Below are positions 18,413 through 42,712 of a DNA stretch of 42,712 nucleotides, one piece after another. Every line of letters begins with the position of its first letter. Position 1 is the stretch's first letter. The notes below the pieces were generated by a model that saw only the letters and a list, made by a program, of their open reading frames with translations, was not told the DNA's origin and did no database searches. The stretch is taken from IMG/VR virus record IMGVR_UViG_3300037504_000559, positions 1 to 42,712 of that record. One strand, 5' to 3'. Source of the stretch: a virus. The translations under genes and the position numbers were made by a program.

Positions 18413-19186
18413 TTATACTGCATGCTTGTGTCCGATGTACTCCTCTTGATACGGCTTCCGAACCGGTAGCCCTTCAAGTGTTCGCCACGCAACATACAAA
18501 TCTTTCAGAAACATTTTCACCATGTACCGCATGGCTGCTTTGTGTTGATGCATTTTACGCGGATTATTTCTGTCTGTGGGATTCTTTGCAGACTCGCCCC
18601 ATTCTTTTGACTGCAACCGGTTCCGCATGTTGTCATAGTATTCTCGATACGGACTATTTGCTTTAAGAAAGCCCGACCCAAGAACGCCGATCATTTTTGC
18701 CCGCAAAAACTGATTGTAAGGACAGAGATACCCTTTTGTTCTCCTGTCCTGTCGAATAAGCGTATCCGTCACCTTGTATTTATTTTTTCCCTTTGTTGCC
18801 TTTCTACCTCTGGTCATACCGGGACTCAGGCCGGTAAACGCCCATAGCTTTGAGACGGTAGTTGCTTTTTCTATATCATATTCAGTCAGAATGATTGCCG
18901 CCATCATTTCGCCGCAGCCCTTGACATCTTCAAGGAATCCCAGCCACAACGGGTGATCGTGTATTGTTTTCCTGATATCTTTTTCTATTGACTTCATAAG
19001 ATTTTTCAATGTCTGTACTCGGTCGGCCAAAGATATCAAAAAACTGTCATCACGATCAGGCGTGTTTTTTTTGAGTTCGTTGTTGCGCTTAATTCCCATT
19101 TGTCCTTCCAGACGACACAACTCCCGCTGGTAGTCGTAGTATACTCTGGTTATTATTTTCAGGCTGTTTTTTATATTATCTTTCAT
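18413..19186 (-). CDS. IS110/IS116-type transposase_20 domain protein without the DEDD half
   Basis: The 257 residues from the ATG at 19186 (GGGGGCTG before it) have a helical front (KIITRVYYDYQRELCRLEG). Then comes the IS116/110/902 core: GFLEDVKGCGEMMAAIILTEYD, SKLWAFTGLSPGMTRGRKATKGKNKY, and a long helical end (HKAAMRYMVKMFLKDLYVAWR). The RuvC-like DEDD N-terminal domain of IS110 transposases is not present, so ordinary IS110 transposition is unlikely. The gene follows the ParB-like gene with an 11-base overlap and is followed by the 36-bp repeats, which may be its sites. Confidence 0.75.
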   Translation of the reverse strand: MKDNIKNSLKIITRVYYDYQRELCRLEGQMGIKRNNELKKNTPDRDDSFLISLADRVQTLKNLMKSIEKDIRKTIHDHPLWLGFLEDVKGCGEMMAAIILTEYDIEKATTVSKLWAFTGLSPGMTRGRKATKGKNKYKVTDTLIRQDRRTKGYLCPYNQFLRAKMIGVLGSGFLKANSPYREYYDNMRNRLQSKEWGESAKNPTDRNNPRKMHQHKAAMRYMVKMFLKDLYVAWRTLEGLPVRKPYQEEYIGHKHAV

Positions 19187-19853
19187 TTTCAGCCCCCAAT
19201 ATTTCGTCAATGACATTTCTGAGTCTTATCATATTTTCAATAGTTTTTTCCGTCAGCTTGTAATTACCGGCCTCAAGCGCATATAGCAATATAGCAATAT
19301 TAGTTGCAGCCTTGCATCCGTTTGCAGTTCTGGCGTGTAATTCCTCAGACTTGTTAAGCGGTCGATCAAGTTCAGACAAATCGGAAGACCCGTTGCTCAG
19401 TATTACCGTTTCTCCACCCTCTGTTTTCGCGTGTCTTTTTTTGAAAAACTCTCGCAACACGTTAACATCACAACCAAGAGCAGAACCAAGAGCCGCCCAC
19501 GGAACTTTCATTTTACGCGCTTTGTATATTACATGAGCGCGATCCTGTGGTGATAGCGGTAAACCATGCGATGCATTAAGTCTTGCTGATTCGCAAAACA
19601 ACTCGCCGTCTTTTTTGAAATGTTTGACGATCACATCTGCTTCATAATCACCGCCAAACAAATCACGATATGCGCGCGTTCGGTGAAAACCGTCAATCAC
19701 TCTGTTATCATGATTGACAATAATTGGTGGCAGTTCAATCCCAGCTTTGACTGCCTCTTTCATTCTCCTTATATTTGTCGAATCTAATGACTCTGCCTTA
19801 TGCCTGGGCCATAGGTTCCAATCAAGTATAAGCTCATTGATTTTTAGTTTCAT
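19176..19853 (-). CDS. ParB-like DNA-binding protein behind a structured leader
   Basis: The 225 residues begin KINELILDWNLWPRH (ParB N-terminal), IELPPIIVNHDNRVIDGFHRTRAY near 37-60 (G-F-H-R-T for the family GxxRR). A helix-turn-helix follows (LSPQDRAHVIYKARKMKVPWAALGSALGCDVNVLREFF). C-terminal helices are typical of dimerisation. It has its own promoter and pseudoknot/terminator leader at 19904-20036. With the adjacent IS110-like protein and 36-bp repeats it could form a partition-like or replication-site complex. Confidence 0.75.
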   Translation of the reverse strand: MKLKINELILDWNLWPRHKAESLDSTNIRRMKEAVKAGIELPPIIVNHDNRVIDGFHRTRAYRDLFGGDYEADVIVKHFKKDGELFCESARLNASHGLPLSPQDRAHVIYKARKMKVPWAALGSALGCDVNVLREFFKKRHAKTEGGETVILSNGSSDLSELDRPLNKSEELHARTANGCKAATNIAILLYALEAGNYKLTEKTIENMIRLRNVIDEILGAENER

Positions 19854-19903
19854 TACTACCTCCGGTATGTTGTTTTTTACCCGCTACGCGGATATACTAA
19901 AAA

Positions 19904-19998
19904 AGCCCTGCTGCATCCGGTTGGCACGTGAGATCAGAAAACTCACACCGGAAGCAACAAGGCTTCTTATTGTCTCTGATTTTTTTTCCGGTGCCAAC
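19904..19998 (-). ncRNA. Structured leader element 3: pseudoknot/terminator attenuator before the ParB-like gene
   Basis: Minus-strand order: A GTTGGCAC (19998-19991), B ATCAGA (19980-19975), C arm (19965-19947), B' TCTGAT (19938-19933), A' GTGCCAAC (19927-19920), C' arm (19921-19904), then six T. A-A' (8 bp) and B-B' (6 bp) are perfect; C-C' is a long stem with G-U pairs. A-A'/B-B' crosses C-C', so the two are pseudoknotted or exclusive. Elements at 22296-22389 and 23061-23150 have the same plan with different sequence. Confidence 0.75.
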
Positions 19999-20007
19999 GG
20001 TGTATAT

Positions 20008-20036
20008 ATAATACAAAATATTGCAGCTCATGTCAA
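20008..20036 (-). promoter_or_regulatory. Sigma-70 type promoter for leader element 3
   Basis: TTGACA (20036-20031), 17 bases, TATTAT (20013-20008) on the minus strand. The -35 box overlaps the stop of the upstream gene. Transcription would start a few bases before the A segment of the leader. Confidence 0.85.
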
Positions 20037-20407
20037 TGTTTTTCCTTATTAATTTTCTTGTCCTCAGCCAATTTTTTCAGAAAATCGCCAAGAATCTTTG
20101 TGCCTTCATCCGCATATTTGTACGGCTCCTCTTTGTACTCGATTTGCTTTGTACGGATCCCTCGCTCTTGCACTATGTAGTCAATATTTTTCCGGTAGAT
20201 TTTACTCAGTACGTCTATCCGTGGTGCCGGTGCTTTGTCTACAGAAAAACTGCTTGTATCGTGCTGCTCTTTGATCAGGCCCAGGAACGTTTCGAGATCG
20301 GTCTCAAAAACGTTGTCTTGCAGCCAGTCAAATACGTCCTTCCTGACCGCTCGTGTATACTGGTTGTAGTACTGCTCCAGCTCGCTAATGAACTCAACCG
20401 TCTTCAT
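20033..20407 (-). CDS. Unrecognised replication-region protein (124 aa)
   Basis: An acidic, mostly helical protein (FISELEQYYNQYTRAVRKDVFDWLQDNVF, LETFLGLIKEQHD) with a basic, flexible C terminus. It overlaps the initiator-like gene by 4 bases, so it may be an accessory factor of replication such as a loader partner. I recognise no motif (no Walker A). Confidence 0.55.
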   Translation of the reverse strand: MKTVEFISELEQYYNQYTRAVRKDVFDWLQDNVFETDLETFLGLIKEQHDTSSFSVDKAPAPRIDVLSKIYRKNIDYIVQERGIRTKQIEYKEEPYKYADEGTKILGDFLKKLAEDKKINKEKH

Positions 20408-21276
20408 TTGTCAGACCTCCCATATATTAATTCTTGCTCCAGCTCCCTGATGCGTTCCTCTTTTGTTTTCGCCTCATTCACCATCCGCTTACCAGCAGCA
20501 GACTTCTTGAACTGCTCAAACTGTGCGCTTAACTTGTCGTATTGTTTCCGGAGCTTATCAGCACTGAGTATGTTGTGCCGCCAAAACTCCGACTGCTCAT
20601 ACACCCACCGGATCACCGCCTTAACTTGTTTTTCCCGGTCCTCAATCGTCCCCTGGCCGTGTAAATCTTTTTCTATCAACAGCCGTATTTGTTTTGGCCA
20701 TTCCTGTATAGCTTTTTCCCGGCTTTTACCCTTGAAGTTCCAGTAGTTTGAGTGATGGTATCTTTCTATGAACAGAGTCATTGCCTCTGCCCATCTGGTA
20801 TATTTTGAATCTTTTTTAGATAGAGCAGGTAAAGTGTCGTCAGCACGGAAAGTGCTGACATTATTATTTATATCAGTATTTACTTTATTCAGTACTTTGT
20901 TATTGTCAGTACTTAGTAGTGACGGGTTTTCCGTTTTCGCGTTTCCCGTTAACGGATTTTCCGTATCTGGTTTCCTGCAATCTTCAGGGACTTCACGTAT
21001 AGTATATTCATACCCGGTGAATTGATTTAACTCGTTTTTCACCTGTCTACGCGTTATATACCCATTATTTTCAAGCTCCTTTAATCCAGCAGCTGTTGAA
21101 TCTCTGCCGTCTGTAGATTGTTTTTTCAGATGTGATACATACACTTCCCAATCGTCAGGCTTGCTAAGCAAATATGCAAGCAGTCCCTTCGCTTTCCATG
21201 ACAGATCCTTGTCATTCAATCCTGTGTTGTTTATGACGCTATAATTTTTATTTTTTTGTACTCTAATTATTGACAT
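20404..21276 (-). CDS. Winged-helix replication initiator-like protein (DnaD/replisome organiser type)
   Basis: The 290 residues have an N-terminal winged helix (LSWKAKGLLAYLLSKPDDWEVYVSHL, STAAGLKELENNGYITRRQ). This is the phage 'helix-turn-helix/replisome organizer' start, KNYSVINNTGLNDKDLSWKAKGLLAYL. A polar linker (about 100-160) and a helical C domain with a coiled end follow. Position next to regulators and before packaging genes fits origin recognition and helicase loading. No helicase gene is seen nearby. Confidence 0.7.
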   Translation of the reverse strand: MSIIRVQKNKNYSVINNTGLNDKDLSWKAKGLLAYLLSKPDDWEVYVSHLKKQSTDGRDSTAAGLKELENNGYITRRQVKNELNQFTGYEYTIREVPEDCRKPDTENPLTGNAKTENPSLLSTDNNKVLNKVNTDINNNVSTFRADDTLPALSKKDSKYTRWAEAMTLFIERYHHSNYWNFKGKSREKAIQEWPKQIRLLIEKDLHGQGTIEDREKQVKAVIRWVYEQSEFWRHNILSADKLRKQYDKLSAQFEQFKKSAAGKRMVNEAKTKEERIRELEQELIYGRSDK

Positions 21277-21890
21277 TCTATTTCCTTTTTTGCTTTTTCA
21301 ATTGCAATATCAACAAGACTACCAACATCCCTCAAAACATCTGATAATATAAAAATGTATTCATGTATTTTGTCACGCAATTTCAATTGGTATTCTGTTG
21401 CTGTTTGCCAATCTTTTACATCACATTCTTTTTTTATTTTATTCGCAATTTTTGTTATAACCTTCGGGAATGTGCTCTTATTGCTAATTATTGTTATCAA
21501 AGCACCTGCCATTTTTTTGTAACTATCGCCAGAGTCGTTCCTGTATTTTAACAAATTGTCATAGATCCAAGAATAAACTTTTATTTTAAATTTAGGATCT
21601 AGAGCTAATGCCATGTCAATAAAAAGATATGGATGCACCCATGTATGCCGCCCCCTCCCCCTTGCTGTTATTTTTATTTTATCTCCAACAGCCTTTTCTA
21701 GCTCACTCATAAATTCTCTCACATTTTTTGTTCTAAAAAACTCGCTAATATCTATCAACCCAAGTCCTTTTGAAGCCCTGTATTTATTTCCTATCCTAAA
21801 AAGATCTGTGGCAGACAAATACCCGGTTTTACTGTTCTGACTCACCTCTCCATCATAAAATTTCCGTTTCATTATTACTGATGTTTTCAA
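21267..21890 (-). CDS. KilA-N domain DNA-binding protein
   Basis: The 207 residues contain KTGYLSATDLFRIGNKYR near 20-38 and ITARGRGRHTWVHPYLFIDMALALDPKFKIKVYSWIYDNLL near 72-115, the KilA-N pattern (T-W-VHP ... A.. .P.F...V..W). The C part is helical. Such proteins act as antirepressors or regulators of phage genes. The start is TTG at 21890 after AAAAGGAG; an ATG six codons later is the alternative. It has its own promoter. Confidence 0.85.
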   Translation of the reverse strand: MKTSVIMKRKFYDGEVSQNSKTGYLSATDLFRIGNKYRASKGLGLIDISEFFRTKNVREFMSELEKAVGDKIKITARGRGRHTWVHPYLFIDMALALDPKFKIKVYSWIYDNLLKYRNDSGDSYKKMAGALITIISNKSTFPKVITKIANKIKKECDVKDWQTATEYQLKLRDKIHEYIFILSDVLRDVGSLVDIAIEKAKKEIECQ

Positions 21891-21922
21891 AACAAATCTC
21901 CTTTTAGTGTGTTTTCACGATC

Positions 21923-21951
21923 ATTATAATACACCTTATTTAATTAGTCAA
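21923..21951 (-). promoter_or_regulatory. Sigma-70 type promoter for the KilA-N gene
   Basis: Minus strand TTGACT (21951-21946), 17 bases, TATAAT (21928-21923). Unlike the neighbouring promoters, no structured terminator follows before the gene start. Confidence 0.85.
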
Positions 21952-21998
21952 TTTTTTTTCTACAAATATTACATGTTTTTTCGCATATTATGTGTATT

Positions 21999-22274
21999 TT
22001 ATACGACCTGTGCCAGTTTGTAGCCGTTCGCAATTTCCATCATAATTTCAAGATCGGTTTTGACCTCGCAGGTACCCGCAAGGTTATGATGCGCTTCCAT
22101 CTCTTGCTTTACAATTGTTATTTCATATTCGTTAAGATACGTTGTTTTCCCGTTTTTTACTTTTTCGGGATAGAGTTTTTTTATGGTCTCTTGTACCGCG
22201 CGAAGAGAATACCCAGTCAATTTTGAAAACTCTCTTGCTGTTACCATTTTTTCTGTTGCTAATTGTTTGTTCAT
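21999..22274 (-). CDS. Small HTH regulator (91 aa) behind a structured leader
   Basis: The ATG at 22274 is chosen because GAGAGGAAAACAA precedes it. An N-terminal helix-turn-helix (VTAREFSKLTGYSLRAVQETIKKLYP) with a wing-like NGKTTYLNEYEITIVKQEME matches the N-terminal part of phage antirepressors (Rha/Ant type). It ends without a catalytic or long C-terminal domain. The gene lies behind leader element 2, so expression needs readthrough of its terminator. Confidence 0.7.
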   Translation of the reverse strand: MNKQLATEKMVTAREFSKLTGYSLRAVQETIKKLYPEKVKNGKTTYLNEYEITIVKQEMEAHHNLAGTCEVKTDLEIMMEIANGYKLAQVV

Positions 22275-22295
22275 TTGTTTTCCTCTCAAAAACAA

Positions 22296-22389
22296 AAAGC
22301 CTTTCTGGAACCGGTTGACCCGCGCCGAGTAGGTAGCGCACCGGAACCAAAAAGGCTTTTAATTTTTCCTACTCACAAAGCCGGGTCAA
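22296..22389 (-). ncRNA. Structured leader element 2: pseudoknot/terminator attenuator before the small HTH gene
   Basis: Minus-strand order: A TTGACCCG (22389-22382), B GAGTAGG (22374-22368), C arm (22359-22340), B' CCTACTC (22333-22327), A' CGGGTCAA (22322-22315), C' arm (22315-22296), then T5-G-T5. A-A' is 8 bp and B-B' is 7 bp, both perfect; C-C' is a near-perfect ~19-bp stem. A' abuts C' with one shared base, as in elements 1 and 3. Confidence 0.8.
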
Positions 22390-22399
22390 GGCTAATAAT

Positions 22400-22428
22400 A
22401 TAATAATCTATTCATGATCAATTGTCAA
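22400..22428 (-). promoter_or_regulatory. Sigma-70 type promoter for leader element 2
   Basis: Minus strand TTGACA (22428-22423), 17 bases, TATTAT (22405-22400). The spacer carries TGAATAG, which also occurs in the spacer of the element 1 promoter. Confidence 0.85.
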
Positions 22429-22471
22429 CCATGACTGTACGCCTCTTGCAAATGTAAACTGTATTGACATT

Positions 22472-23038
22472 CTACACCTGAAATACTTTTTTCAATATGT
22501 CGACATGATAACTATTCACATGACCAAATCTTTCGTCAGGTATTTTACGTATCTCGATACCAGTTATCCGGCTTTCACGCGCAGCATCACGACCTAACTT
22601 GATTGCATCGCTGAAGGCAATATCAGTTATTCCTATACTATTCGCGTATCCAATTACCGAGTAGTAATCCTGTTTGTATTCAATTTGTTTTGCCGGTTGT
22701 ATCTCAGTGAGAATTGATCTGACCATCTGCGGTATACTGACCACCAATTTTTCAACCATCGATTCCAGTCGGTCGAGCCTGTCTAATTGTTTGCTCTCAG
22801 GCGGGACAGTACTGTTTAGGTGCTCGGCATTTTGCCTGAATATTGCTGCCGCATTTTTTCCCATGCCGACCTCGATAATTTTGATTGTTTCATCCAAATC
22901 ATAATCAGCTGGGTTCATAGGAGAGCTTGCCGACATTTTGTCTTTAATTGACGACATTTTGTCGCTAAGCTTTTTGATCCAGCGTTGTACTGATCTTTCT
23001 GTTTTGCCTAATGTTCCTGCAATTTCTTTTATTGTCAT
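22472..23038 (-). CDS. HTH antirepressor-like protein behind a structured leader
   Basis: The 188 residues start with a helix-turn-helix (TIKEIAGTLGKTERSVQRWIKKL). A coiled region follows (LDRLDRLESMVEKLVVSIPQMV) and a C-terminal domain (YKQDYYSVIGYANSIGITDIAFSDAIKLGRDAARESRITGIEIRKIPDERFGHVNSYHVDILKKVF) like the C-terminal modules of phage antirepressors. The ATG follows CAAGGGGGAAAC. It sits behind leader element 1. Confidence 0.7.
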   Translation of the reverse strand: MTIKEIAGTLGKTERSVQRWIKKLSDKMSSIKDKMSASSPMNPADYDLDETIKIIEVGMGKNAAAIFRQNAEHLNSTVPPESKQLDRLDRLESMVEKLVVSIPQMVRSILTEIQPAKQIEYKQDYYSVIGYANSIGITDIAFSDAIKLGRDAARESRITGIEIRKIPDERFGHVNSYHVDILKKVFQV

Positions 23039-23060
23039 GTTTCCCCCTTGAAAAACAAAA

Positions 23061-23150
23061 GGCTATACTGCCAGTAGTGTTGACCTGCGGATGTGGCACC
23101 GCACACTACGGCAATATAGCCTCTAATTTTTGCCACATTTGCCCGGTCAA
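23061..23150 (-). ncRNA. Structured leader element 1: pseudoknot/terminator attenuator before the HTH protein
   Basis: Minus-strand order: A TTGACC (23150-23145), B ATGTGGCA (23138-23131), C arm (23121-23103), B' TGCCACAT (23098-23091), A' GGTCAA (23085-23080), C' arm (23080-23061), then TTTTGTTTTT. B-B' is a perfect 8-bp match. C-C' pairs 18-19 positions with one bulge. Segment order and spacers (A-B 6, B-C 9, C-B' 4, B'-A' 5, A'-C' 0) match the two other elements. Confidence 0.8.
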
Positions 23151-23161
23151 AGGCTGTCTAT

Positions 23162-23190
23162 ATAATACGCTATTCACAACTTTTTGTCAA
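23162..23190 (-). promoter_or_regulatory. Sigma-70 type promoter for leader element 1
   Basis: Minus strand TTGACA (23190-23185), 17 bases, TATTAT (23167-23162). The -35 box overlaps the end of the upstream Cys-rich gene by a few bases. Confidence 0.85.
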
Positions 23191-29377: not shown

Positions 29378-29626
29378 TTGAAGTTCTGCCTGCTCCTGAA
29401 GGAGTTCTGCAAACAATTCCTCCGGCAGAGCCCACTCAAGGTGATTGAGCGGCACCCATTCCCACGTGCCAGCGAACCCATGAATTGGGTTCCGGCGGTG
29501 GAGGCGCAGCCACAACTGCTCTTCTCGAAAGTCTGTTGCTCCGAAAAACTGCAACTCTTCGTCCAGCCACAGTCCTTCTCTGACTTGTTCCCACAATCCT
29601 GCTTGTTCCCACAATCCTGTATTCAT
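29372..29626 (-). CDS. Trp/Glu/Leu-rich early protein (84 aa) with short internal repeat
   Basis: It opens with a repeat of GLWEQ (GLWEQAGLWEQVREGLW) and continues with many Trp, Glu and Leu residues (EEQLWLRLHRRNPIHGF, EWALPEELFAELLQEQAELQA). Its base composition is richer in GC than neighbours. It stands behind a structured leader (29629-29734). No family is recognised. Confidence 0.5.
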   Translation of the reverse strand: MNTGLWEQAGLWEQVREGLWLDEELQFFGATDFREEQLWLRLHRRNPIHGFAGTWEWVPLNHLEWALPEELFAELLQEQAELQA

Positions 29627-29628
29627 AA

Positions 29629-29734
29629 TCTTTCTCCCTTGCGTATCCCCGCCGGGTTTTGTTTCGCATCAACGATGCGCAGCCTATCTCATCAGTGCGG
29701 GTAGGCTATCTCCCGCAGACCGGCCGCAGCCGGT
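29629..29734 (-). ncRNA. Structured leader L2: hairpin, H-type pseudoknot, conserved hairpin block, ribosome site
   Basis: Minus order: ACCGGC-TGCG-GCCGGT hairpin (29734-29719); TGCGGG (29717-29712), AGAT, AGCCTA (29707-29702), CCCGCA (29701-29696), CTGATGAGA, TAGGCT (29686-29681), a textbook H-type pseudoknot with 6-bp stems; hairpin CGCATC-GTT-GATGCG (29679-29665); then a block shared with leader L1, with CCCGGCGGGG, ACGCAAGGGAG and AAAGA before the ATG. Confidence 0.65.
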
Positions 29735-29742
29735 TTCGATTT

Positions 29743-29949
29743 TTACCATTCCTCTTCGCCAGAATAAATCAGCAGGTCCTCAATTGCTTCATGCATGGTT
29801 TTTGCATCGTCCATATAGCGTTCTTCAAGATTATTATACACTGACCATTTGCTGCTTGTTTTCTTGATCTCGAAAAACATACCGTTTGTCTCAAGTTCGT
29901 AAACTGCTGACTGGTTGTTTTCTTTTGCTGCTGTCTTTGTTATCTTCAT
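29743..29949 (-). CDS. Small early protein (68 aa), unrecognised
   Basis: Beta-rich front (SAVYELETNGMFFEIKKTSSKWSVYN) with a short helical acidic end (ERYMDDAKTMHEAIEDLLIYSGEEEW). First gene behind the early promoter at 30028-30056 and leader L1. Function unknown. Confidence 0.6.
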   Translation of the reverse strand: MKITKTAAKENNQSAVYELETNGMFFEIKKTSSKWSVYNNLEERYMDDAKTMHEAIEDLLIYSGEEEW

Positions 29950-29951
29950 GT

Positions 29952-30018
29952 TCTTTCTCCCTTGCGTGTCCCCGCCGGGTTTTGATGATTAACAATCAAC
30001 GATTGTTTTTTATCATCT
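29952..30018 (-). ncRNA. Structured leader L1: paralogue of leader L2
   Basis: Minus strand: GATGAT pairs with ATCATC around hairpin CAATC-GTT-GATTG (30005-29993). The block 29984-29952 is identical to 29661-29629 apart from one base. The hairpin keeps the GTT loop while its stem bases change in pairs relative to L2 (CGCATC/GATGCG). Confidence 0.65.
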
Positions 30019-41139: not shown

Positions 41140-41444
41140 ATGCGCCGTTTCTTGAACGTATGCAAACCTGACATTTTTTTGATTGAATACCTCTTGTCAG
41201 GATTCTGTACAGCGGAACCGTTCCGCTTCAATATCTGTATAGTATTATTATACTCCAAAGAAATGCTGCCGTCAATGTGTATTATAGATTCCCCATAAAC
41301 TTCTTTACCCATGTTATCCAGTATAACCTTCTGGTAATCATCAACACGTGCTGATACAGTTTGAGTGCTTTCATCAGATACGCCCCATTCATCACGTCCG
41401 GAGTCTATTATTTTTATCTGATCAGTGAAATATATTTTGCTCAT
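41121..41444 (-). CDS. Head-tail joining/adaptor protein
   Basis: The 107 residues are beta-rich (TDQIKIIDSGRDEWGVSDES, ESIIHIDGSISLEYNNTIQI, KRYSIKKMSGLHTFKKRRMWEIII), like small stopper/adaptor proteins (phage_H_T_join style). It follows the sulfotransferase with a 4-base overlap. The sugar module thus separates minor head genes from this neck gene. Confidence 0.55.
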   Translation of the reverse strand: MSKIYFTDQIKIIDSGRDEWGVSDESTQTVSARVDDYQKVILDNMGKEVYGESIIHIDGSISLEYNNTIQILKRNGSAVQNPDKRYSIKKMSGLHTFKKRRMWEIII

Positions 41445-41983
41445 AGTTTCTCATACCCGAATGTTTCAAAATCATCCGCAAAATGCTTGTTGATTATCTG
41501 TATTGTTTTCTTTGTGTGTTTTGCAGAAAGATTTTTTGATCCCTGATTCAAATGCTCAACCGGAAGTATTATGCCAATTTTTTCTTGAACCTCTTTTAAT
41601 CCTCTTTCAAGTTCCTCATACTTGATTATCAGATCAAGCTCGTCAACACCGGTCCAGTACGTCTGAGGATACAAAACAGGATCATTGTTTTCTTCCAGCG
41701 CAGAGAGCCACCTGTAAAATGAACGGTATGTCTTTCCCTCATATTTTGATTTTCTGCGAAAAGATGATAAAGTTTTTTCATAGGGATTCCTGACAACCGC
41801 AAACTTGAAATACCTCGCCCATGCTTTTTGGAAATTATCTTTGTAGAAATCGTAAGGCACGTGGGAGTAATGATTGTTCTGTCCTTTCTCAACATCCGGA
41901 AAAGAGGACAAGGCGGCGCGTATTGAGGTCCCAGCGGTACGTGGAACATGTATGAATATTGTCTTTAGGTTGTGGTGTATCAA
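41441..41983 (-). CDS. Sulfotransferase (PAPS-dependent)
   Basis: The 180 residues have the PAPS 5'-phosphosulfate-binding loop TIFIHVPRTAGTSIRAAL near 9-26 and the 3'-phosphate-binding segment VVRNPYEKTLSSFR near 62-75. These are the two diagnostic sites of carbohydrate sulfotransferases (Sulfotransfer_2 type). The rest is short. It sits between the HAD phosphatase and the neck genes, so it may sulfate the sugar added by the phage glycosyltransferase or host glycans. Confidence 0.85.
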   Translation of the reverse strand: MIHHNLKTIFIHVPRTAGTSIRAALSSFPDVEKGQNNHYSHVPYDFYKDNFQKAWARYFKFAVVRNPYEKTLSSFRRKSKYEGKTYRSFYRWLSALEENNDPVLYPQTYWTGVDELDLIIKYEELERGLKEVQEKIGIILPVEHLNQGSKNLSAKHTKKTIQIINKHFADDFETFGYEKL

Positions 41984-41985
41984 GG

Positions 41986-42306
41986 CTACTCCTTCACAAG
42001 ATCAAGCGCGTCAATCGCGCTGTTCAAATTATTTGTTTTGTCTATATAGATGCCAACCGGCTTTCCCATTATCAGTTCATGATACATTACATCAAAACTC
42101 GCCAGTTGTTTTTTTGTTACATCATAGCAATCCCAGCCCCTCCCGGTGTGCAGTATTATAGAATGGCCTTTTTTATACAGCAAGTTTACCGCTGCAATCT
42201 CGGATTCTATCTGCACAGGGTCTGAATACTGAAAACGACCGCACCGACTGCATATCTCTTTTTTTGATATCAATATCGTGTCGTCAATGTCAATTATGAA
42301 CTGCAT
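41986..42306 (-). CDS. HAD-superfamily phosphatase (sugar-phosphate type)
   Basis: The 106 residues from the ATG at 42306 have motif I FIIDIDDTI (D-x-D), motif II IILHTGRGWD, and the late motif GKPVGIYIDKTNNL. A small cap-like insert with CSRCGRF lies early. It resembles capsule-biosynthesis HADs. In this module it could dephosphorylate the C9-phosphate sugar product of NeuB or the sugar-6-phosphate. It overlaps the nanE end by 17 bases. Confidence 0.75.
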   Translation of the reverse strand: MQFIIDIDDTILISKKEICSRCGRFQYSDPVQIESEIAAVNLLYKKGHSIILHTGRGWDCYDVTKKQLASFDVMYHELIMGKPVGIYIDKTNNLNSAIDALDLVKE

Positions 42307-42712
42307 CAATAATCCCCTTATAGCCTATCGTTTTAAGATCAATACCGGTTATTTCTCTACCAATACAAACAGCACAGGCTCCGTTATTTATTGCCGATTC
42401 TATTTGATTATAATTTGAATACCCGCCCTCCGCTATCACTTTTTGTCCCATGTCAATACTCTTAATCTCAGCAACAAGTTCTGGATTGCAAGGGCGATCA
42501 AAAACGCTAAAAGTAGTGGCAACGTAATCAGGAACACAACCACACTTAATAAGATTTTCATAATCTTTTGCATTACGGATATCACCAACAATTTTCAATC
42601 CCTTCCTTTTCGCCAATCGATATAATGGCTTTATGTTATTATTACACATTCTTGAGTCAATTGCAATGTAAGATGAATCACAAGATGCAATATCTTTTTC
42701 ATACACAGATAT
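42290..42712 (-). CDS. nanE: NanE-like epimerase, C-terminal part (continues across the window ends from 539)
   Basis: This is the second half of the gene described at 1-539. Residues include MCNNNIKPLYRLAKRKG, VATTFSVF and VIAEGGYSNYNQIE, ending TIGYKGIIDAVHN. Compared with the left copy, two of three substitutions change the protein: Leu against Phe at 42478/128 and Arg against Met at 42606/256. The third is silent. Confidence 0.75.
   Translation of the reverse strand: MSVYEKDIASCDSSYIAIDSRMCNNNIKPLYRLAKRKGLKIVGDIRNAKDYENLIKCGCVPDYVATTFSVFDRPCNPELVAEIKSIDMGQKVIAEGGYSNYNQIESAINNGACAVCIGREITGIDLKTIGYKGIIDAVHN
42351..42712. repeat. Direct terminal repeat, right copy (circle overlap)
   Basis: Matches 1-362 except at 42478, 42606 and 42689. 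See left copy. Joining the ends here restores one uninterrupted nanE-like frame. Confidence 0.9.

Follow-up and report, generated by a model that had tools for sequence, protein, structure and literature searches.

What kind of RNA is encoded by the three promoter-to-terminator leaders found on the minus strand of IMG/VR virus record IMGVR_UViG_3300037504_000559? Within this stretch of 42,712 nucleotides (nt), hereafter called the window, the three leaders share one order of parts: a promoter, six segments named A, B, C, B', A' and C', a T-run and then a gene, with A complementary to A', B to B' and C to C'. A first-pass annotation of the letters alone had described three cassettes with this order and these promoters, and all of them lie where it had placed them. 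Our analysis indicates that each cassette is probably a compact, self-targeting C4-type attenuator, in which a C4-like hairpin doubles as the intrinsic terminator for the leader that contains it. The parts of the cassettes, all on the minus strand (-), are as follows.

23190-23056 (-): cassette 1 as a whole, upstream of the gene for a 188-amino-acid (aa) protein
23162-23190 (-): cassette 1 promoter, TTGACA-17-TATTAT, 11/12 consensus positions
23141-23154 (-): cassette 1 5' hairpin H1, whose loop holds A (TTGACC, 23150-23145)
23131-23138 (-): cassette 1 B (ATGTGGCA), an 8-bp perfect complement to B'
23103-23121 (-): cassette 1 C, 5' terminator arm (GGCTATATTGCCGTAGTGT)
23087-23102 (-): cassette 1 inner hairpin D, GCGG[TGCCACAT]CCGC, whose loop is B' (23098-23091)
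23080-23085 (-): cassette 1 A' (GGTCAA)
23056-23080 (-): cassette 1 C' (ACACTACTGGCAGTATAGCC) and T-run
22428-22289 (-): cassette 2 as a whole, upstream of the gene for a 91-aa protein
22400-22428 (-): cassette 2 promoter, TTGACA-17-TATTAT
22379-22393 (-): cassette 2 H1, holding A (TTGACCCG, 22389-22382)
22368-22374 (-): cassette 2 B (GAGTAGG)
22341-22358 (-): cassette 2 C, 5' terminator arm
22322-22340 (-): cassette 2 inner hairpin D, whose loop holds B' (CCTACTC, 22333-22327)
22315-22322 (-): cassette 2 A' (CGGGTCAA)
22289-22314 (-): cassette 2 C' and T-run
20036-19898 (-): cassette 3 as a whole, upstream of the gene for a 225-aa ParB-like protein
20008-20036 (-): cassette 3 promoter, TTGACA-17-TATTAT
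19988-20000 (-): cassette 3 H1, holding A (GTTGGCAC, 19998-19991)
19975-19980 (-): cassette 3 B (ATCAGA)
19948-19965 (-): cassette 3 C, 5' terminator arm
19928-19946 (-): cassette 3 inner hairpin D, GTGAG[TTTTCTGAT]CTCAC, whose loop holds B' (19938-19933)
19920-19927 (-): cassette 3 A' (GTGCCAAC)
19898-19920 (-): cassette 3 C' and T-run

The short pairings described in the first-pass annotation were borne out in all three cassettes. A-A' measures 6, 8 and 8 base pairs (bp) and B-B' 8, 7 and 6 bp in cassettes 1, 2 and 3, respectively, all of them perfect, and A' directly abuts C' with a gap of 0. The C-C' stem is present as well, although the length of 18-19 bp given for it is slightly high for cassettes 2 and 3: a 12-bp lower helix common to the three cassettes carries a variable upper part, so that cassette 1 has 12+7 bp and a 1-nt bulge, cassette 2 has 12+4 bp and a 2x2 internal loop, and cassette 3 has 12+1+4 bp and a single mismatch. 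Two further features emerged from our analysis. A occupies the loop of a small hairpin on the 5' side, H1 (GCC[TTTGACCG]GGC, AGCC[TTGACCC]GGCT and CCG[TTGGCAC]CGG in cassettes 1, 2 and 3), and B' occupies that of an inner hairpin, D (TGCGC[..CCTACTC..]GCGCG in cassette 2), which itself lies within the terminator loop. The spacing from B to C is 7-9 nt, the loop from C to C' spans 22-27 nt and contains D and A' only, and the predicted leader length is about 105 nt per cassette. The cassettes are mutually homologous, with a mean column identity of 75% in an alignment of the 3 copies, for which RNAalifold gave a 24-pair terminator stem with 6 pairs changed on both sides.

The significance of this layout was evaluated with a strict descriptor that demands A of length at least 6 in the H1 loop, B of length at least 6 with B' in the D loop, A' at most 2 nt from C', a long C-C' stem and a T-run. 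Applied to both strands of the window, it returned exactly 3 matches, which are cassettes 1-3, with scores of 39, 37 and 31. The same search over 871 dinucleotide-shuffled windows (37.2 Mb) returned 2 matches in total, the better of which scored 31. Descriptor matches in L018, L019 and L038 were weak (scores of 20-25) and were judged to be due to chance.

Cassettes of this layout are present in other phages; their distribution as given here comprises the phages named and is a lower bound. The KilA-N protein encoded at 21267-21890 of the window provided the search entry point to cassette-bearing metagenomic phages. In L008/L011 a cassette is found upstream of a ParB_N gene; its B reads GCATGTAG/CTACATGC, and C' is preceded by a gap a few nt long. 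In L017 the cassette immediately precedes a Rha/T5orf172 gene; its A (TTCAGAC) occupies a hairpin loop, its inner hairpin is GATGC[TTTAAGTGT]GCATC and its A' (GTCTGAA) abuts C'. The second Rha-like gene of this phage has no cassette. The L008/L011 and L017 cassettes are unlike those of the window in sequence but alike in layout. The covariance model that the first-pass annotation had proposed to build from the three copies, R1, does recover the window copies but misses L008 and L017, because the sequence is not conserved.

A descriptor match was also obtained in the cultured Vibrio phage vB_VpP_BT-1011 (BT-1011), and blastn from its cassette revealed homologues in at least 10 other Vibrio phages, with 77-93% identity over the matched part. 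These homologues are mostly situated in stretches without an annotated gene, several of them adjoining tRNA genes. Seahorse and 1.240.O are further Vibrio phages in which the cassette is present. In phiV208 and NF (L049, L050), A pairs better with CTCTCAC within the D loop than with the position beside C', and A' appears to have been relocated into the D loop in a rearranged element. Just upstream of the Vibrio cassettes (L041-L050), several TTGCAA-17-TATAAT promoters are overlapped by the inverted repeat CCCACC..GGTGGG, an overlap which suggests that the promoter of several Vibrio cassettes is itself repressible.

Other elements came up in these searches and stand apart from the cassette set. 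R1 has a weak match at L009:8739-8839 (= L012:9739-9839), after the KilA-N gene, comprising a promoter, two stems and a terminator; it was left out since it shows one clear, short crossing pairing only, and is possibly another type of attenuator. A pattern search based on C gave one match, in the unrelated contig L007, which was judged to be due to chance. Palindromic TACATGTATTATAATACATGTA and ACATGT words occur at KilA-N promoters (L017:2065-2090, upstream of the L009 KilA-N gene and at about 21970 of the window) and are possible operators of the KilA-N protein.

Covariation had been claimed from the three window copies, where it is thin. The Vibrio phages provide further homologues with compensatory changes in A-A' and maintained complementarity in B-B'. 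In six Vibrio phages, two pairs of A-A' are changed on both sides and 97% of the cells are paired: the variants are GAGAG/CTCTC and GGAAG/CTTCC, with GAAAG/CTTTC in BT-1011 and H2. When H1 and A-A' of these six phages are taken together, 98% of the cells pair, as compared with 38-57% after the partner has been shifted by 1-3 columns. B and B' change in nearly every clade and retain their complementarity. Since insertions and deletions shift B out of register in the MAFFT alignment, formal counting was replaced for B-B' by a test of cognate against swapped partners. None of 100,000 permutations reached the cognate sum, either for 10 Vibrio cassettes or for 15 cassettes. For the duplexes between 5' arm and loop in 16 cassettes, including that of P1, the cognate sum was -338 kcal/mol versus -254 (standard deviation 12) for permuted partners, and none of 200,000 permutations equalled it. 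Related rows inflate these tests somewhat, but their direction is clear: as judged from these sequences, cognate arms are preferred over swapped ones.

We then compared the cassettes with the C4 system, as the first-pass annotation had likened them to a c4-type leader. The anatomy agrees with this view. The arrangement typical of c4-a1b1 (RF03163), in which b1 comes after an a1 that occupies a hairpin loop, is found in the window cassettes: in P1 the annotated a1 (TTGACAG) is in a hairpin loop with b1 next to it, and in the window A is in the H1 loop and B follows. They likewise display the arrangement of C4 RNA (RF01695), which in P1 consists of a long stem, an inner hairpin whose loop is b', and a' (CTGTCAA) abutting the 3' strand. 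Even the a1 and a' words of the window cassettes (TTGACC, TTGGCAC; GTCAACC, GCCAACC) are similar to those of P1. C4 is also promoter-proximal, and in P1, whose antirepressor it controls, and in mEp460 it is associated with an antirepressor-type gene, as are window cassette 1 and L017.

Membership of the C4 family did not hold up. The Rfam C4 model gave no match in the window at the gathering threshold (45 bits), none at E<=10 over 4.6 kb and none in a 111-nt search of cassette 3. No match above gathering was obtained in the window for c4-a1b1 or isrK (RF01394), and none of the three models matched in L011-L012, L014-L018 or BT-1011. The C4 controls P1, mEp460, ECO95 and Acinetobacter scored 58-84 bits; Rfam scored the P1 region as C4 and c4-a1b1, and mEp460 and ECO95 as C4 with isrK in front. 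No downstream a2/b2 sites were found: the only clear same-strand two-site match of cassettes 1 and 2 is their own A/B, and the same scan recovers both a1b1 and a2b2 in P1. Because the search gave no second clear two-site partner, the most economical assumption is that the RNA targets itself. Unlike C4, the C4-like stem of the window cassettes is the intrinsic terminator itself and ends in a T-run, which is not the case for the C4 stems of P1, mEp460 and Acinetobacter. The UUCG hairpin that stands beside the b' hairpin in C4 is missing, B is 7-9 nt from C instead of 66, and several cassettes with different B specificity occur in one genome. With no profile match, no UUCG hairpin, no a2/b2 and a stem ending in a T-run, the cassettes, which we call C4-like in the plan on which they work, are a variant rather than members of the C4 family.

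Three other systems offer partial parallels. In one of them, that of the phage P4 CI RNA, termination is Rho-dependent, not intrinsic. IsrK of the Gifsy-1 prophage is likewise a short terminated leader; it and the mRNA produced by readthrough have complementary segments in common, and this readthrough reaches an antirepressor gene (PMC4825925). In mEp460 the isrK match precedes C4 and Rha. IsrK differs in having a terminator apart from the C4-like part and a control that is translational and in trans. The P4 CI RNA (seqA / CI / seqC) is a leader-derived antisense RNA; by binding to complementary parts of the leader it brings about premature termination ahead of the replication genes (PMC4825925). 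Unlike the window leaders, it undergoes processing and is flanked by its pairing sites. The Group 1 C4-like small RNAs of A. baumannii resemble the cassettes in being C4-type RNAs that are numerous in one genome and variable in their a' specificity (PMC5320573), but they have the canonical three-stem C4 fold and RNase P-type processing and are reported without terminator fusion. C4 itself is cut at a GG motif by RNase P, which yields an RNA of about 77 nt (PMC5320573). No description of a terminator-fused C4 was found in the open-licence literature.

How the leader could work is suggested by folding. When prefixes ending before C' are folded without pseudoknots, A-A' plus B-B' is the predicted minimum-energy fold of cassettes 1 and 2 (-28.3 and -29.3 kcal/mol), while in their finished leaders the terminator is predicted to win at about -42 to -44 kcal/mol. 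A constitutive-looking promoter would produce a leader of about 105 nt, whose 5' arm would present A in a hairpin loop and B as a single strand, complementary to the B' and A' displayed by the terminator hairpin. We infer that pairing at both sites, whether in cis within one leader or in trans between a released leader and a nascent one, would set the frequency of readthrough into the downstream gene. Before the leader accumulates, cis pairing of A-A'/B-B' would delay the terminator and the gene would be expressed; accumulated leader would occupy A and B of new transcripts, the terminator would fold unhindered and expression would be turned off. This direction is favoured because it is seen in P4-type and C4-type immunity, in which accumulated antisense RNA shuts off the operon (PMC4825925); whether pairing in fact favours or prevents termination is unproven. 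B differs between the window cassettes, and each B has its cognate B' as best partner. Little crosstalk is therefore expected and the cassettes would be largely specific, with the A segments of cassettes 1 and 2 being interchangeable.

The genes behind the window cassettes start about 20-50 nt past the T-run, without a visible promoter of their own.

22472-23038 (-): gene after cassette 1, 188 aa, N-terminal part helix-turn-helix (HTH)-like, C-terminal stretch resembling phage antirepressors/regulators
21999-22274 (-): gene after cassette 2, 91 aa, weak excisionase/HTH-like match (phrog_575, 0.0035)
19176-19853 (-): gene after cassette 3, 225-aa ParB-like protein (phrog_1033, 5.6e-8)

The product of the first gene has an HTH_23 match below the cut-off, matches phrog_4936 at 1.1e-7 and resembles the Kamaru and Chenonceau antirepressors with E of 2e-3 to 5e-3. 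All three genes are most likely regulatory, an assignment that comes from weak family matches for those behind cassettes 1 and 2. Protein searches of viral or genome collections returned no close relatives of the genes behind cassettes 1 and 2, nor of the replication gene and the terminase. Relatives of the ParB-like gene in L002-L006 have no cassette upstream. In several of these a short hairpin is found directly before the ParB-like gene (e.g. ACTACGGCGAAGTCGTAG, ACCCCGATGGGGT, CCCCCGTTGGGGG), and the window contains CCGCGTAGCGG before its own copy, at about 19870-19895.

Several findings weigh against the self-targeting attenuator or limit its reach. Prefix folding favours the A/B form only partly in cassette 3 and L008 and does not favour it in L017 or the Vibrio cassettes. 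Kinetic competition may thus not be general, and a rule that A/B pairing comes first in every case, which held in full for cassettes 1 and 2 only, was discarded. A-A'/B-B' may also form a pseudoknot with an intact terminator instead of competing with it. The downstream genes are mixed (regulators, ParB-like, tRNAs, methylase, phosphatase), so that a single immunity role does not fit every case. Duplex energy without position constraint is weaker evidence, with 38, 8 and 100 of 5000 arm shuffles being as good for cassettes 1, 2 and 3, which means that the positions carry much of the evidence. Restricted to the window copies, L008 and L017, the cognate tests weaken to 2493 and 841 of 100,000, and neither L008 nor L017 is significant by duplex energy alone. 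This last result is the one that speaks for ordinary intrinsic terminators with chance complementarity, an explanation that is hardly credible, being contradicted by the descriptor statistics, the cognate tests and the compensatory changes.

The leaders could instead be stable pseudoknotted small RNAs that act elsewhere, the terminator marking their 3' end and the downstream gene being reached by leaky readthrough. A strong promoter and a terminator do flank about 105 nt, the element lies beside tRNA genes in Vibrio phages, and the pairings of A (H1 loop) and B' (D loop) can form with H1, D and C left intact. We nevertheless regard this as unlikely given the proximity of the window genes to the T-run without a separate promoter, and the A and B sequences are unconserved while their complementarity is kept, which argues against an external target. 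Canonical C4 action, in which the C4-like part would be processed and repress downstream translation in trans via a2/b2 near the ribosome-binding site, shares its fold and two-site logic with the cassettes and agrees with the antirepressor-type genes behind cassette 1 and L017; without a2/b2, UUCG hairpin or Rfam C4 match, and with a T-run after the stem, its chances are slim. Slighter still are those of a protein-controlled attenuator, in which the HTH or ParB-like product, or a phage antiterminator, would bind the pseudoknot and control readthrough of its own leader. DNA-binding-like genes do follow all three window cassettes, but their products are unrelated to one another, tRNAs or enzymes take their place in Vibrio phages, and ParB relatives occur without the cassette. 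The proposal of the first-pass annotation that each gene is autoregulated is not supported as it was put, in the sense of control through the gene's product.

Other features of the window lie apart from the cassettes. A type II hammerhead ribozyme (29678-29741 (-), 38.1 bits, above Rfam gathering) is situated in the gap just upstream of a small open reading frame (ORF). A 40-nt leader repeat is present at 29622-29661 and 29945-29984, in copies that are 93% identical and 323 nt apart, each directly before a small ORF, the first copy being right behind the ribozyme. Promoter-like sites with strong terminators shortly after them, at 28567-28478 and 30245-30167 (-), fall outside the cassette descriptor and are possible small RNAs. 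Genes of the NeuB family (532-1374), for a cytidylyltransferase (1352-1921), NanE-like (42290-42706) and for a sulfotransferase (41441-41983) form a set that looks like phage-borne synthesis of sialic or nonulosonic acid.

Taken beyond this genome, the cassettes may well represent a widespread new class of phage leader RNA. Such a leader would join a C4-type two-site antisense module to a self-targeting intrinsic terminator, and several copies in one genome, with separate specificities, would act as RNA timing or immunity switches. If the self-targeting attenuator is correct, antisense immunity RNAs of the P1/P4 type exist in a minimal version that works without a second target and without a protein, and a single leader of about 105 nt would be target, antisense and terminator together. 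The three partly orthogonal copies in one phage and the relatives in cultured Vibrio phages make this directly testable. It would also suggest that many phage terminator leaders, which are unannotated or called plain terminators, are regulated RNAs.

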